NCBI GenBank assembly: GCA_002839535.1
Contig: PGYF01000013.1
Location: forward strand, 5,176 to 44,968
DNA from: Nitrospira bacterium HGW-Nitrospira-1
GTDB taxonomy: Bacteria; Nitrospirota; Thermodesulfovibrionia; Thermodesulfovibrionales; UBA6898
DNA: 39,793 bases
Direction: 5' to 3'
In this document: positions 12,737-18,872 of the stretch, one piece after another
How the letters are laid out: every line of letters starts with the position of its first letter
Position numbering within the stretch: the first letter of the stretch is position 1
The notes under the pieces: model-generated
Told to the model about the DNA's origin: nothing
The model's input: the letters and a program-made list of their open reading frames with translations, nothing else
Database searches by the model: none
Made by a program: the position numbers and the translations under genes

Positions 12737-12880
12737 CTAAATAGTGTCTGTGTATAAATTAAAGTTTGTCATCCTCGGGCTTGACCCGGGGATCCAGAAC
12801 ATATTGAAAGCAATGGATTCCCGATTAAGGACTTCGGGAATGACGAACAAAAAGCAGAGTTTATACACAGGCTCTAAATA
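12737..12880. mobile_element. MITE-like element with terminal inverted repeats and apparent 7 bp target duplication, with a nested intergenic repeat (12764-12848)
   Basis: CTAAATA | gtgtCTGTGTATAAA ... TTTATACACAGgct | CTAAATA; inner gtttgtcat...atgacgaac. Confidence 0.7.
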
Positions 12881-12948: not shown

Positions 12949-13695
12949 TTGAGCGAATATACTGTCTTCCCAAATGCACCTATAACTGAAGCTCTATTAG
13001 ATATTCGTGTTGAGTTACCAGAAGATGTCGATATTAATAAAATAGAAACTTTTCATGAGCATGTCAAAGATAGATTCCCTGATAAGAAAACAAGGGGTGC
13101 CTTTGCGATAGGAGTACAATTAATGCCAGATGGAACTCCGCAATCGCTTCCTGCCTCTGGTGGCCCCCAAGGATTCCTTTTCCGTTCACCTAACGAGAAT
13201 AAAATAGTTCAAGCAAGAATAGATGGCTTCACTTTTAACAAACTAAGGCCCTATGAGAACTGGACAGTTTTTCGTTCTGAGGCTAAATCATTGTGGAATA
13301 TGTATGTAGACCAGTTCGTTCCAAAAAAAGTAACTCGCATTGCCTTAAGGTATATAAATAGAATAGAAGTACCTTTACCGATAAAGGACTTTAAAGAGTA
13401 CATTTTAACTAATCCTGAGATTGCACCAAAGTTGTCACAATTTATTGATCATTTTTTTATGCAGGTTATATTGCCAAATCCAGAAATTCAAGCCAAAGCA
13501 GTAATTACTCAGACAATGGAACCAGCCACGGACAAAAACAAACTCCCTTTAATTCTTGATATAGATGTATTCATGGAAGCTGTTTATGTGGATAATAAAG
13601 AAGAAATATGGACCGATTTTGAAAAATTGCATGTATTTAAAAATGAGATATTTTTTAATAGCCTGACTGATAAAGCAAAGGAACTTTTTAAATGA
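12949..13695 (+). CDS. TIGR04255-like family protein
   Basis: FPNAPITEALLDIRVELP N-terminus and KKVTRIALRYINRIEVPL; characteristic of this sporadic family. Confidence 0.75.
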   Translation: MSEYTVFPNAPITEALLDIRVELPEDVDINKIETFHEHVKDRFPDKKTRGAFAIGVQLMPDGTPQSLPASGGPQGFLFRSPNENKIVQARIDGFTFNKLRPYENWTVFRSEAKSLWNMYVDQFVPKKVTRIALRYINRIEVPLPIKDFKEYILTNPEIAPKLSQFIDHFFMQVILPNPEIQAKAVITQTMEPATDKNKLPLILDIDVFMEAVYVDNKEEIWTDFEKLHVFKNEIFFNSLTDKAKELFK

Positions 13696-14147
13696 CATAT
13701 GCTGATTCAAGAAATGCATTGCATTATTTAAATCGTGAAAAAGTCATTGTTGTCTACGTGAATACATCAGCAGTGGGAGATGACTCCAATATAATCACCA
13801 ATGAAGCTGAACGCTCAGTGGGGCACTATCTTATTCCAGCCTCAACACAATTGGCATATCCTGAGACAAGATTTCTTACGCTTAAAAGAGAATGGGAAGA
13901 TAACACTGCTTATCTATCATCTATGACTAAAATAGTCATGCATCCTGCCTATCAGCAAATTATTGGAATGGGCCAAATTGCTATTCCCTTAATCTTTGCG
14001 GCGATGGAAAAAACCCCGGATCATTGGTTCTGGGCTCTAAGGTCTATAACAGGCAAAGATCCTGTGCTACCTGAGCATAGAGGTCGCTTAAGACAGATGA
14101 CTGAAGATTGGCTTAAGTGGGGTAGGGAAAACGGCCATATTGCATGA
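13692..14147 (+). CDS. Uncharacterised protein with HEAT-like C-terminal segment
   Basis: YQQIIGMGQIAIPLIFAAMEKTPDHWFWALRSITGKDPV...WLKWGRENGHIA; ATGA overlap with upstream gene. Confidence 0.7.
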   Translation: MTYADSRNALHYLNREKVIVVYVNTSAVGDDSNIITNEAERSVGHYLIPASTQLAYPETRFLTLKREWEDNTAYLSSMTKIVMHPAYQQIIGMGQIAIPLIFAAMEKTPDHWFWALRSITGKDPVLPEHRGRLRQMTEDWLKWGRENGHIA

Positions 14148-14590
14148 GTTCTGAGGGACAGAAACTGATCGAGGAAATTTTCCCCGGCTTGTTATCCAGT
14201 GGGTATGATATTGCCAGCCCAGCCACAAGAGAATATAATTGCATTGCTTGGGCTGCCGGAGATAGTGAAACTTGGTGGTGGCCTAATAAAGATTGTTTCT
14301 GGCCGTCTGAAATCCCGCAAGAAGAAAACCTGGAGGTGTTCATTAAGGTCTATGAAGCTTTTGGATACTCTCTTTGTGCTATCGATAGCTATGAAGAAGG
14401 GGCAGAGAAAGTTGCCATATATGTTGATCCCGAAGGAATACCAACCCATACAGCAAGGCAGTTAAGCAACGGACGCTGGACAAGCAAGTTGGGGAAACTT
14501 GAAGATATAGAACACAACTCTTTGGAAGGCCTTTACGGCCATACTTACGGCGCTGTTGCAGTGATTATGAAAAGGCCGATAAAAAAGTAA
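14144..14590 (+). CDS. Uncharacterised protein, putative Cys/His hydrolase (DUF7689-like by recall)
   Basis: EYNCIAWAAGDSETWWWPNKDCFWP ... EKVAIYVDPEGIPTHTARQLSNGRWTSKLGKLEDIEH; ATGA overlap with upstream gene. Confidence 0.65.
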   Translation: MSSEGQKLIEEIFPGLLSSGYDIASPATREYNCIAWAAGDSETWWWPNKDCFWPSEIPQEENLEVFIKVYEAFGYSLCAIDSYEEGAEKVAIYVDPEGIPTHTARQLSNGRWTSKLGKLEDIEHNSLEGLYGHTYGAVAVIMKRPIKK

Positions 14591-14592
14591 AG

Positions 14593-14724
14593 ATGCCGAA
14601 ATCAAAATACGATAATTATACAAAAGAGCAGTTGGTGGAGAAGATAAAACAGCTTGAAAAGCATCGCTATGGATTAGTCTGGGAGGACAAGCAGGAAGAC
14701 TTGAAGAATAAGGAAATCAAATGA
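14593..14724 (+). CDS. Small protein (43 aa) preceding the methylase
   Basis: MPKSKYDNYTKEQLVEKIKQLEKHRYGLVWEDKQEDLKNKEIK*; ATGA overlap with 14721 start; absent from the ORF track. Confidence 0.65.
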   Translation: MPKSKYDNYTKEQLVEKIKQLEKHRYGLVWEDKQEDLKNKEIK

Positions 14725-16823
14725 CACAAGAAGACATCATCCAAACGATTCTCAAAGACAGTAATTATCATCTTTCTCTCTTTTCCGATGATGAGATTGC
14801 TGCCCTGAGCAATAAAATTAATATCAAGGAATCAAAGAGCAGGAAAATGCCCTTTGTCGTCTGCATTATTCGTGGCAAAGACATCCCGTTGAAGCCAGAA
14901 GAAGTTGTCCGTCAGCTTTATGCAGCAAGACTGATCGAGCAATACGGCTACCCCAAAAAACGGCTTGCTTTTGAATATCCGGTCAATTTCGGGAGGGAGA
15001 AGAAAAGCGCTGATATAGTGGTATTTGATAAAGACAGACCTGATACGCCATACATTATCGTTGAGTTGAAAAAGCCGAAACTCAAAGACGGCAAAGACCA
15101 GCTCCGTTCATATCGCAATGCGACCGGCGCGCCGATGAGTGTCTGGACCAATGGCGAGAAGATTTCTCATTACCACCGCAAAGACCCTAACTATTTTGAA
15201 GACATCACCGACATCCCCAAGGCAAGCCAGAGCATTAAGGACATACTCAGTGAACGGTTTACCCTGAAGGACCTTATCATTAAGGATAAACTCGCCAACG
15301 AGCGTAAGTCCCTGAAAGATATTATTCTTGAAATGGAAGACGAAGTGCTTGCCAACGCTGGCGTAGATGTCTTTGAAGAGGTCTTTAAGCTCATATTTAC
15401 CAAGCTTTATGATGAATTTCTGAGTCAGAAAGATAAAGACATAATCAACTATTTTACAAAACAGGTTACTCAAACCGCAGTGGGAGAACCGGTTGCAACC
15501 TATGGCAATAAGCCCGGATATTTTGATGGTTCCGATTATGACGCGCTAAATGCCGCCGTAAGCGGCATTGATGATGAGGGCTTCAGAGTTATGGAGTTCA
15601 GAAACTCCGGCCAGACTGATACGGAACTGAAAAACAAGATTCAAGGTTTGTTCGATCAGGCAAAAAGCCAGTGGCCGGGTGTTTTTGCGGACGGGTCTGT
15701 TTTTGAGCTATCGGACAGCCATTTGGCCATCTGTATTGCGAGCTTGCAGGATGTAAAGCTGTTCAACTCCAATTTATTGGTGGTGGATGAAGCCTTTGAA
15801 TATCTGGTGAATAAATCTGCCAAAGGAGAAAAGGGGCAATACTTCACGCCGCGTCATATTATAGATATGTGCGTGAAGATGCTCAATCCTAAGGCTGGAG
15901 AGTATATGATTGACACGGCTTCAGGCAGTTGCGGGTTTCCTGTGCATACCATTTTTCAGATTACGGGACATCTGTTTACAAACGCCGAAATCTCTGAGAA
16001 AGACAAGGAGTATGTCTTAAAAGTCTTCGGCATAGACTTTGACGAAAAGACCGTGCGCGTGGCCCGCACTCTGAATCTTATTGCCGGTGACGGCGAAACC
16101 AATGTGCTGCATTTAAACGCTCTGGACTATGAACGATGGGACGACAAGACGGAGAACGATAAAAAATGGATTAAGACCTATGGCAAGGGATTTGAACGAC
16201 TGGAAAAGCTCCGGGCCGAAAAGGGCGAAAATAAATACTTCAATTTTGATATTCTGATGGCCAATCCGCCTTTTGCCGGAGACATTAAAGAGAACCGCAT
16301 CCTGCATCAGTACGAACTGGGATTTAATGCCAACAATAAAGCGCAATCCAAAGTCGGACGGGACATTCTATTTATCGAGCGCAACCTGGACTTTCTCAAA
16401 CCCGGCGGGCGCATGGCAATAGTCCTGCCTCAAGGCCGCTTCAATAACACTTCGGATAAACCTATTCGGGAATTTATCGCCCAACATGGGCGGATACTGG
16501 CTGTTGTAGGTTTGCACGGCAACACCTTCAAGCCACATACAGGCACCAAGACCAGTGTTTTGTTTATACAGAAATGGGACGATAAACTTTGCCCTAAAGT
16601 AGAGGACTATCCCATCTTCTTTGCAGTGAGTGAAAAAGGCGGCAAGGACAACTCCGGCGACTATGTCTATGTAAAAAATGGCACAGGGCAAGACAAGCTG
16701 GATAAAAACGGCCACCTCATCGTTGACCATGACTTGCATAATCATAATGGAGAATTGTCTGACGGCATTGCCGAGGCCTTTATAAAGTTTGCCAAAAAGG
16801 AAAAGCTGTCGTTTTGGAAATAA
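14721..16823 (+). CDS. Type I-like N6-adenine DNA methyltransferase fused to an HsdR_N-type nuclease domain
   Basis: N-terminus EYPVNFGREKKSADIVVFDKDRPDTPYIIVELKKP (PD-(D/E)xK-like); C-terminus KGQYFTPRHIIDMCVKML, DTASGSCGFPVHT, MANPPF. Confidence 0.9.
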   Translation: MTQEDIIQTILKDSNYHLSLFSDDEIAALSNKINIKESKSRKMPFVVCIIRGKDIPLKPEEVVRQLYAARLIEQYGYPKKRLAFEYPVNFGREKKSADIVVFDKDRPDTPYIIVELKKPKLKDGKDQLRSYRNATGAPMSVWTNGEKISHYHRKDPNYFEDITDIPKASQSIKDILSERFTLKDLIIKDKLANERKSLKDIILEMEDEVLANAGVDVFEEVFKLIFTKLYDEFLSQKDKDIINYFTKQVTQTAVGEPVATYGNKPGYFDGSDYDALNAAVSGIDDEGFRVMEFRNSGQTDTELKNKIQGLFDQAKSQWPGVFADGSVFELSDSHLAICIASLQDVKLFNSNLLVVDEAFEYLVNKSAKGEKGQYFTPRHIIDMCVKMLNPKAGEYMIDTASGSCGFPVHTIFQITGHLFTNAEISEKDKEYVLKVFGIDFDEKTVRVARTLNLIAGDGETNVLHLNALDYERWDDKTENDKKWIKTYGKGFERLEKLRAEKGENKYFNFDILMANPPFAGDIKENRILHQYELGFNANNKAQSKVGRDILFIERNLDFLKPGGRMAIVLPQGRFNNTSDKPIREFIAQHGRILAVVGLHGNTFKPHTGTKTSVLFIQKWDDKLCPKVEDYPIFFAVSEKGGKDNSGDYVYVKNGTGQDKLDKNGHLIVDHDLHNHNGELSDGIAEAFIKFAKKEKLSFWK

Positions 16824-16826
16824 ATT

Positions 16827-17825
16827 ATGAAAAAAGATATTCTGCAAAAAGGCGAAATAATAATTTATAGGACCTCAAAAAATGAGGTAGAGTTGGAAGT
16901 CAAACTGGAGGAAGAAACTGTTTGGCTTTCTTTAGATCAAATGGCTGTCTTGTTTAAAAGAGATAAATCTGTTATTTCGCGCCATATCAAAAATATTTTT
17001 AACGAAAAGGAATTAGAGCAAAAATCAGTTATTGCAAATTTTGCAACAACTGCCGCAGATGGAAAGGTTTATCAAGTGAATTACTATAATCTGGATGTCG
17101 TTATTTCCGTGGGCTATAGGGTTAAATCACAAAATGGAGTAAAGTTTCGCATTTGGGCGAGCAATGTTTTGAAGCAATACCTCATTAAAGGCTATGCCAT
17201 AAACAGTAAAAAGCTTTTGGAAGCACAAAGTAAATTTAATGAACTTCAGGAGGCGGTTTTATTTCTACAAAAGCAGTCGCAAAAAGAACTCCTGAAAGGT
17301 CAGGAAACTGAAATTATAAACTTGCTTGCAGATTATTCCAAGACCTTGTCGCTTCTTGAACAATATGACAAGGGGAAACTTCAGGCGCAAAAAGGGAAGA
17401 AGACCGCATTTGTTTTGCAATATAAGGACTGCATCAAAATAATTGCAGAGCTAAAAAAAGAACTGACTGCCAAAAAAGAAGCAGGAGATCTGTTTGGCGT
17501 GGAAAGAGGCGGCGGTTTTACCGGCGTCGTCAAAGGGCTGTATCAAACATTTGATAGAAAAGAACTGTATCCGACTATTGAAGCCAAAGCATCGCATTTG
17601 CTGTATCTGACTATTAAAGATCATCCTTTTACTGACGGCAATAAAAGAGTTGCCTCATTTTTGTTTGTCTTTTTTTTGGACAGATCAAATTATCTCTTTA
17701 AAAAATCAGGCGAGAGAAAAATCAATGACAACGCTTTGACAGCGCTGGCTTTGCTGGTTGCCGAAAGCGACCCGAAAGATAAAGATGTAATGATTAAGAT
17801 TATCAAAAATTTAATCTCTGAATAA
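16827..17825 (+). CDS. RhuM-family / Fic-Doc fusion protein
   Basis: N-terminus VWLSLDQMAVLFKRDKSVISRHIKNIFNEKEL...VISVGYRVKSQNGVKFRIWASNVLKQYLIKGYAIN; C-terminus HPFTDGNKRVASFLF. Confidence 0.9.
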   Translation: MKKDILQKGEIIIYRTSKNEVELEVKLEEETVWLSLDQMAVLFKRDKSVISRHIKNIFNEKELEQKSVIANFATTAADGKVYQVNYYNLDVVISVGYRVKSQNGVKFRIWASNVLKQYLIKGYAINSKKLLEAQSKFNELQEAVLFLQKQSQKELLKGQETEIINLLADYSKTLSLLEQYDKGKLQAQKGKKTAFVLQYKDCIKIIAELKKELTAKKEAGDLFGVERGGGFTGVVKGLYQTFDRKELYPTIEAKASHLLYLTIKDHPFTDGNKRVASFLFVFFLDRSNYLFKKSGERKINDNALTALALLVAESDPKDKDVMIKIIKNLISE

Positions 17826-17831
17826 ATAACT

Positions 17832-18452
17832 ATGCAATATTCAATTGTAAATTGGAAAGACCATGAGCCAACTTCTTTACGGCTTGATGCTGAATATTAC
17901 CGACCTATATTTTTACAGACGGAAAGGCAAATAAAGAGCAAGGAATGGGATTATCTGGAGAATTTATCTGAATCCATAAAAAGCTTTGGTGCATATTCAC
18001 TTTGTAATCAATTTGAATATATAGAAAAAGGTATTCCATTTCTAAGATGTAAAGACATTAAATCCGGGCGTATCGACTTTTCTGATGTTCTTTACATTAG
18101 TCACGATGCAAACAAGCTTTTATGCAAATCAGAAGTAAAGCCAAAAACTGTTCTTTTCACGATGTCGGGAACAGTCGGAAATTCTGCTATTGCAACAGAA
18201 GAGATTAAATATCCTATTAACTCAAATCAGGATATTGCAAAGATAGTCACGAATAGACAATTGAATCCATACTATTTCTCAGTATTCTTACAATCAAGCT
18301 ATGGCGAAAAGCAAGTTTCCAGATTGCCTGTTGGAAGCGTGCAGCAACATGTTTTTTTGTGGCAACTTGAGAAACTTATTGTTCCTAATGAAGACGCAGC
18401 TAATAAATGGCTGCAAACGCAAACAAAAGAGGCTGTTTCCTGTTGTCGATGA
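17832..18452 (+). CDS. Type I specificity subunit-like protein, single target-recognition domain (half-size HsdS)
   Basis: SLRLDAEYYRPIF; GIPFLRCKDIKSGRIDFSD; SGTVGNSAIATEE; only 206 aa. Confidence 0.7.
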   Translation: MQYSIVNWKDHEPTSLRLDAEYYRPIFLQTERQIKSKEWDYLENLSESIKSFGAYSLCNQFEYIEKGIPFLRCKDIKSGRIDFSDVLYISHDANKLLCKSEVKPKTVLFTMSGTVGNSAIATEEIKYPINSNQDIAKIVTNRQLNPYYFSVFLQSSYGEKQVSRLPVGSVQQHVFLWQLEKLIVPNEDAANKWLQTQTKEAVSCCR

Positions 18453-18559
18453 ATAGGATTAGACATGACAATCTGATATTTGATGAGGCATTCTTGATAG
18501 GGTTGTTAGAAGGAGAACTAATATATGCCGCTTCCACTTTTAATAAAAACACTTACTGA
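18449..18559 (+). CDS. Mini-ORF bridging HsdS and DUF3024
   Basis: MNRIRHDNLIFDEAFLIGLLEGELIYAASTFNKNTY*; ATGA overlap with the HsdS-like stop. Confidence 0.3.
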   Translation: MNRIRHDNLIFDEAFLIGLLEGELIYAASTFNKNTY

Positions 18560-18872
18560 AAAAAAGTTAAAAAAATATTGTGAGAATAAAATTCCGTCGC
18601 ATGTCAGGGATAAAATAACACTTTCATTTAAGTTCAGAGGAAACAGCGTTACCATATTTGAAAACAGGGCGCCATGGCATCCGGACATAAAAGAATGGTC
18701 TTCCATGCCAATAGCCCAAATGAGATATGATGGTAAAACTGGCAAATGGAATCTCTACTGTGCTGACAGAAACGATAGATGGCACGAATATTACGACGTT
18801 GAGCCGACAAAAAATATTGATGTCATCTTAAAAGAAATCGAGGACGACCCTACAGGGATTTTCTGGGGATAA
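18525..18872 (+). CDS. DUF3024-like protein
   Basis: MPIAQMRYDGKTGKWNLYCADRNDRWHEYYDVEPTKNIDVILKEIEDDPTGIFWG. Confidence 0.75.
   Translation: MPLPLLIKTLTEKKLKKYCENKIPSHVRDKITLSFKFRGNSVTIFENRAPWHPDIKEWSSMPIAQMRYDGKTGKWNLYCADRNDRWHEYYDVEPTKNIDVILKEIEDDPTGIFWG

Follow-up and report, generated by a model that had tools for sequence, protein, structure and literature searches.

Toxin–antitoxin–chaperone (TAC) modules, such as HigBA-SecB and CmdTAC, consist of three adjacent genes, with a third protein proposed to act through an extension of the antitoxin (PMC5105189, PMC6377645); tripartite toxin–antitoxin (TA) modules with a third protein are known antiphage systems (CmdTAC, PMC11618068). In the Panacea (PanAT) and NetFlax type II TA network, partners are swapped between toxins and antitoxins, and Panacea is an experimentally established antitoxin domain (PMC8832971). 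Papain-like folds are found in toxins and peptidases (AvrPphB/YopT, NlpC/P60, Josephin-type), and proteins carrying the eCIS_core domain (PF13699, formerly DUF4157) are a setting in which cargo toxins are expected (PMC11297309). In this work, a cassette of three overlapping genes was analyzed in a 39,793-nucleotide stretch (the window) of contig PGYF01000013.1 of Nitrospira bacterium HGW-Nitrospira-1 (GCA_002839535.1), and was best read as a tripartite TA system made of a probable cysteine-enzyme toxin, its proposed antitoxin, and a third protein that heads many such cassettes with different third genes.

The three open reading frames were intact and located on the forward strand: gene 1 at 12949–13695 (TTG start, in agreement with its homologues; 248 aa), gene 2 at 13692–14147 (151 aa) and gene 3 at 14144–14590 (148 aa). 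They were joined by exact ATGA stop/start overlaps at 13692–13695 (genes 1 and 2) and 14144–14147 (genes 2 and 3). The observation behind the original prediction, a three-gene overlapping cassette, was therefore confirmed. Gene 1, predicted to resemble the TIGR04255 family, matched the NCBIfam model TIGR04255 (3.3e-43; 148 bits against a cut-off of 30). Gene 3, predicted to be a papain/NlpC-like Cys/His hydrolase, was not recognized at that time as a member of Pfam PF24738, DUF7689 (6.2e-43; 146.7 bits against a gathering score of 22.6). Gene 2 had no Pfam, NCBIfam or PADLOC hit at E<=1, and the “HEAT-like” label given to its C-terminal segment was not supported by sequence search. None of the three genes matched a PADLOC model, and PDB sequence searches with the three profiles returned nothing significant. 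No paper mentioning DUF7689 or TIGR04255 was found in the literature library searched.

A scan of one genome per species with an alignment of gene 2 gave 238 relatives, of which 80 loci were kept. Across 87 loci with gene 2 (mostly from that scan), gene 3 followed directly in 74 and TIGR04255 preceded directly in 31, an arrangement far beyond chance. Co-occurrence of the three genes outside this contig, one of the conditions set beforehand, was thus observed, and in at least ten phyla: the loci came from Nitrospirota, Planctomycetota, Cyanobacteriota, Thermodesulfobacteriota, Myxococcota, Cloacimonadota, Spirochaetota, Bacteroidota, Armatimonadota, Hydrogenedentota and others. The DUF7689 of the window was nearest to that of another Nitrospirae bin (84% identity). 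The distribution was sporadic, since only 9 of 296 Nitrospirota genomes carried DUF7689. A plasmid search with gene 2, a first viral scan with gene 2 alone and a search of a phage collection with a divergent DUF7689 found nothing, although gene 2–DUF7689 pairs and TIGR04255 were also seen on viral contigs.

The Cys and His of gene 3 highlighted in the original prediction (in NCIAWA and PTHTARQL) were Cys33 (codon at 14240–14242) and His102 (14447–14449), both invariant in 63 of 63 aligned DUF7689 sequences. Tyr31, Asn32 and Gly117 were also among the invariant residues, while Ser114, Lys115, Asp121 (59/63) and His124 (60/63) were nearly invariant. The last two belong to the predicted acidic patch (DIEH, residues 121–124, 14504–14515) and are possible third catalytic or structural residues. 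The AlphaFold2 model of gene 3 was confident (pLDDT 96, pTM 0.90), and placed Cys33, the proposed nucleophile, at the start of helix 33–37, and His102, the proposed catalytic base, in strand 100–106, which is the papain-like order. No PDB fold match passed E 1e-3; the best ones (E 0.05 or worse) were mostly to the wider papain-like fold: Josephin-type deubiquitinases, AvrPphB, LytE, CwlO and USP/UCH proteins. NlpC/P60 membership was not supported, as PF24738 was the only Pfam match and neither a PDB sequence hit nor a significant fold match was obtained. DUF7689 was also found as the C-terminal domain of eCIS_core proteins (4.8e-31) in three Nitrospirota loci (L005–L007 in the numbering of this survey), which lay beside further eCIS-core-like ORFs and lacked gene 2.

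Several features suggested that gene 2 behaves like an antitoxin. The same 149 Cyanobacteriales genomes were surveyed in both directions. Of 38 DUF7689 genes scored as intact, 36 were directly behind an intact gene 2; a 37th (G447) was split by an insert beside an intact gene 2, and the 38th (G448, locus L192) was a divergent form with an intact DUF7689 and a stop inside its downstream gene-2-like ORF. By contrast, gene 2 was intact beside a damaged DUF7689 in 11 loci and without a detected one in 14, several of which kept a short remnant of its start. DUF7689 was thus lost or broken beside an intact gene 2 about 26 times (including the split copy) and the reverse was seen at most once, L192 being the divergent exception, though losses are partly shared by descent and the count of 26 overstates the independent events. 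If damage fell by length alone, about 58% would hit DUF7689, and 25 of 25 would have a probability near 1e-6, a figure that shared descent also weakens. In a separate set of DUF7689-seeded cyanobacterial loci, 36 of 36 carried an intact gene 2 directly upstream. In two Tychonema loci (L057, L058), the orphan gene 2 was directly followed by a DNA cytosine methyltransferase-like gene where DUF7689 had been deleted. Orphan gene 2 remained under purifying selection (dN/dS 0.14 for the pair L205/L206; orphan median 0.26, paired median 0.28), which is consistent with retained protection or with another, independent role.

The conserved core of gene 2 (residues 61–143, 13872–14120; F..LK..W ... HPAYQQIIGMG ... 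DHWFWAL ... WLKW) was fused in relatives to other domains: at its N-terminus to SocA_Panacea (6e-23 and 2e-23; loci L149 and L150), to an AbrB-like domain (1.5e-32) and weakly to Phd/YefM (5e-4, below cut-off), and at its C-terminus to HU (1.6e-18). The copy in the window had none of these domains. A complication came from Bacteroides and Phocaeicola plasmids (L207, L208, L209), which encoded lipoproteins in which DUF7689 and a gene-2-like domain (hhalign E 3e-5 over 60 columns) formed one exported chain; in L207 the gene was located two genes upstream of a MAC/perforin-domain gene. This confirms that the two belong together, but it is unusual for a toxin and its antitoxin, and in an exported protein the roles may differ.

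TIGR04255 was present in 34 of 198 Nitrospirota genomes and in 23 of 247 genomes of a second phylum, but only 2 of 30 and 5 of 30 fetched loci, respectively, held genes 2 and 3. In 84 of 89 TIGR04255 loci a gene started within -22 to +30 bases of its stop, 58 of them at exactly -4, as in the window. Different pairs were found behind it: a helix-turn-helix protein plus a Zeta toxin (5.6e-10); unknown proteins plus HEPN (1.5e-6) or PIN (1e-11); a HicB-position protein plus a HicA-like protein (3e-4, below cut-off); and a WDGYxA protein plus a HANIxWP protein. DUF7689 thus occupies the slot that known toxins occupy elsewhere. The WDGYxA/HANIxWP cassette (L100, L101, L102, L104, L106, L110, L111, L118, L119, L212, L213, L235–L237, L247, L248) is apparently undescribed and was more common than the DUF7689 one; its WDGYxA protein weakly matched PADLOC PDC-M32A. 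In six other TIGR04255 cassettes (L096, L103, L105, L125, L240, L243), the third gene carried an SxSCD / SHDCD-like motif (WRQGDV...VVISHDCDL), with no Pfam hit for the four tested (L103, L105, L125, L240). The AlphaFold2 model of the TIGR04255 protein (pLDDT 89, pTM 0.83) showed two similar halves, each a four-stranded sheet followed by a long helix. Foldseek gave TATA-binding protein and AdoMet decarboxylase folds (best E 1e-4), but with TM of about 0.3–0.44 and rmsd near 12 A, so only the topology of the halves is alike; SecB was not among the top 50 matches.

Gene 2 carried an N-terminal extension linked to TIGR04255. Its conserved core began near residue 54 in trios but near residue 25 in pairs without TIGR04255 (p 1.6e-6; starts called mechanically). 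The extension held a pattern, G/A-V/L/M-S/G-x-E/D-S ... HY-x2-P-I/V-S/T, which in the window corresponds to about residues 25–53 (13764–13850; TSAVGDDS..HYLIPASTQ). A profile of this tag found the N-termini of WDGYxA partners (best E 1.7e-4), an unrelated family: 6 of 47 TIGR04255 partners other than gene 2 scored >=6 bits, against 0 of 1578 control ORFs (p=4e-10) and 5 of 2350 shuffles. The tag was absent from 102 of 103 gene-2 proteins in loci without TIGR04255, the exception (L033) being on a contig cut inside a TIGR04255 fragment. The simplest reading is a putative docking segment for TIGR04255. However, a common N-terminal motif looked for across all TIGR04255 partners held only for the gene-2 and WDGYxA classes, and was not seen in the PIN, HEPN, Zeta or HicA-like classes.

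Downstream of the trio, R-M-like genes started at about 130 bp. This block (14721–18872, forward strand) comprised a 700-aa HSDR_N + N6_Mtase fusion, a RhuM-Fic protein (PDC-S23), a short 206-aa specificity subunit and a DUF3024 protein (PDC-S43); no full HsdR was seen, so it may be incomplete. A 43-aa ORF (MPKSKYDNYTKEQLVEKI..., 14593–14724, forward strand), located between gene 3 and the methyltransferase and overlapping the methyltransferase start by ATGA, is probably the first gene of the R-M operon. Just upstream of the trio, an imperfect inverted repeat (12760–12875; gtcatcctcgggcttgacccgggg...cccg...cgggaatgac) resembled a dispersed intergenic repeat. Neighbors of trios elsewhere were mostly housekeeping genes (such as IMPDH, hisA and lysS), with a few R-M genes.

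The best explanation, which we consider fairly likely, is a tripartite type II-like TA module. Of the features of type II TA systems, a small adjacent, overlapping gene pair with conserved order, a proposed toxin that is not kept without its proposed antitoxin (with the divergent exception L192) and, in relatives, swapping of the proposed antitoxin core with other antitoxin or DNA-binding domains were observed. In this model, DUF7689 would be the toxin, a small protein whose papain-like Cys33/His102 site probably modifies or cuts an as yet unidentified intracellular protein; gene 2 would be the antitoxin, its C-terminal core (about 85 aa) binding and inhibiting DUF7689; and TIGR04255, translated first and shared by many TA pairs, would engage a 45–60 aa N-terminal extension of the antitoxin, acting as a chaperone- or sensor-like control element whose loss would free the toxin. 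The families, the overlaps, the conserved order, the asymmetric loss, the domain swaps, the tag distribution and the toxin-family partners of TIGR04255 were established here, whereas toxicity, neutralization, binding of the tag by TIGR04255, the biochemical activity and any antiphage role are inferred. The interpretation in the original prediction was partly supported: translational coupling and joint action, conserved order across phyla and the conserved Cys and His in papain-like secondary-structure positions were supported, and the “conflict” idea was supported by TA-type evidence rather than by the R-M neighbors, while the HEAT-like and NlpC/P60 assignments were not supported.

Other explanations were weighed. 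Genes 2 and 3 might form an obligate enzyme complex with a housekeeping or stress role, gene 2 being an activator, maturation or substrate-binding subunit of a cysteine hydrolase or transferase. The natural fusion in the Bacteroides lipoproteins, the conserved pairing and the purifying selection on orphan gene 2 are compatible with this view, but it appears unlikely given the one-sided losses, the fusion of the gene-2 core to antitoxin and DNA-binding domains, the known toxin families in the third slot of TIGR04255 cassettes and the eCIS-core fusions lacking gene 2. That the trio is part of the adjacent restriction-modification locus is very improbable and was largely refuted by its recurrence without R-M genes. 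It is also very improbable that TIGR04255 is a SecB-type chaperone, which would make this a TAC system proper: the logic of a third protein plus an antitoxin extension is the same, but the fold search favored TBP-like halves and the extension is N-terminal, not C-terminal.

As an extension of the best explanation, TIGR04255 may be a phage or stress sensor and the trio an abortive-infection system, in which an incoming factor would bind TIGR04255, release the antitoxin tag and free the toxin. The antiphage precedent of CmdTAC, the R-M genes next to this trio and some others, and the occurrence on viral contigs point in this direction, but the mostly housekeeping neighbors and the absence of PADLOC matches do not, and on present evidence, without phage data, this remains doubtful. 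If true, it would explain how many unrelated toxins can share one trigger. More broadly, and tentatively, TIGR04255 might be the hub of a previously unrecognized class of modular tripartite TA systems in bacteria, docking on an N-terminal segment of exchangeable antitoxins and so controlling at least six unrelated toxin classes (PIN, HEPN, Zeta, HicA-like, DUF7689 and the WDGYxA-coupled family), with DUF7689 as a new papain-like intracellular toxin; we consider this somewhat less likely than not. The proposed module gives a testable role to two families without a function (TIGR04255 and DUF7689) and to an unnamed antitoxin family, predicts the catalytic residues and the docking segment, and points to a third-component hub distinct from SecB and Panacea.

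In this reading the cassette works like TAC and Panacea systems but is not a member of either. As in HigBA-SecB and CmdTAC, there are three adjacent genes and an antitoxin extension tied to the presence of the third protein; the extension is, however, N-terminal, TIGR04255 is the first gene, it gave no SecB match in the fold search, and it is shared by many non-homologous pairs. Partner swapping is common to the Panacea and NetFlax network, and the gene-2 core is itself fused to Panacea in L149 and L150, but gene 2 of the window carries no Panacea domain, the shared element of the trio is a separate protein, and term searches of the two papers on that network found no papain-like or peptidase toxin. 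With papain-like toxins and peptidases, DUF7689 shares the predicted Cys at a helix start and His on a following strand, and these gave its top, though non-significant, PDB matches; it has no sequence match to them and carries distinct YNCIAWA / THAARQL / SKLG motifs. Finally, the same DUF7689 domain forms the C-terminus of eCIS_core cargo-like proteins, whereas the protein encoded in the window is stand-alone and accompanied by gene 2.
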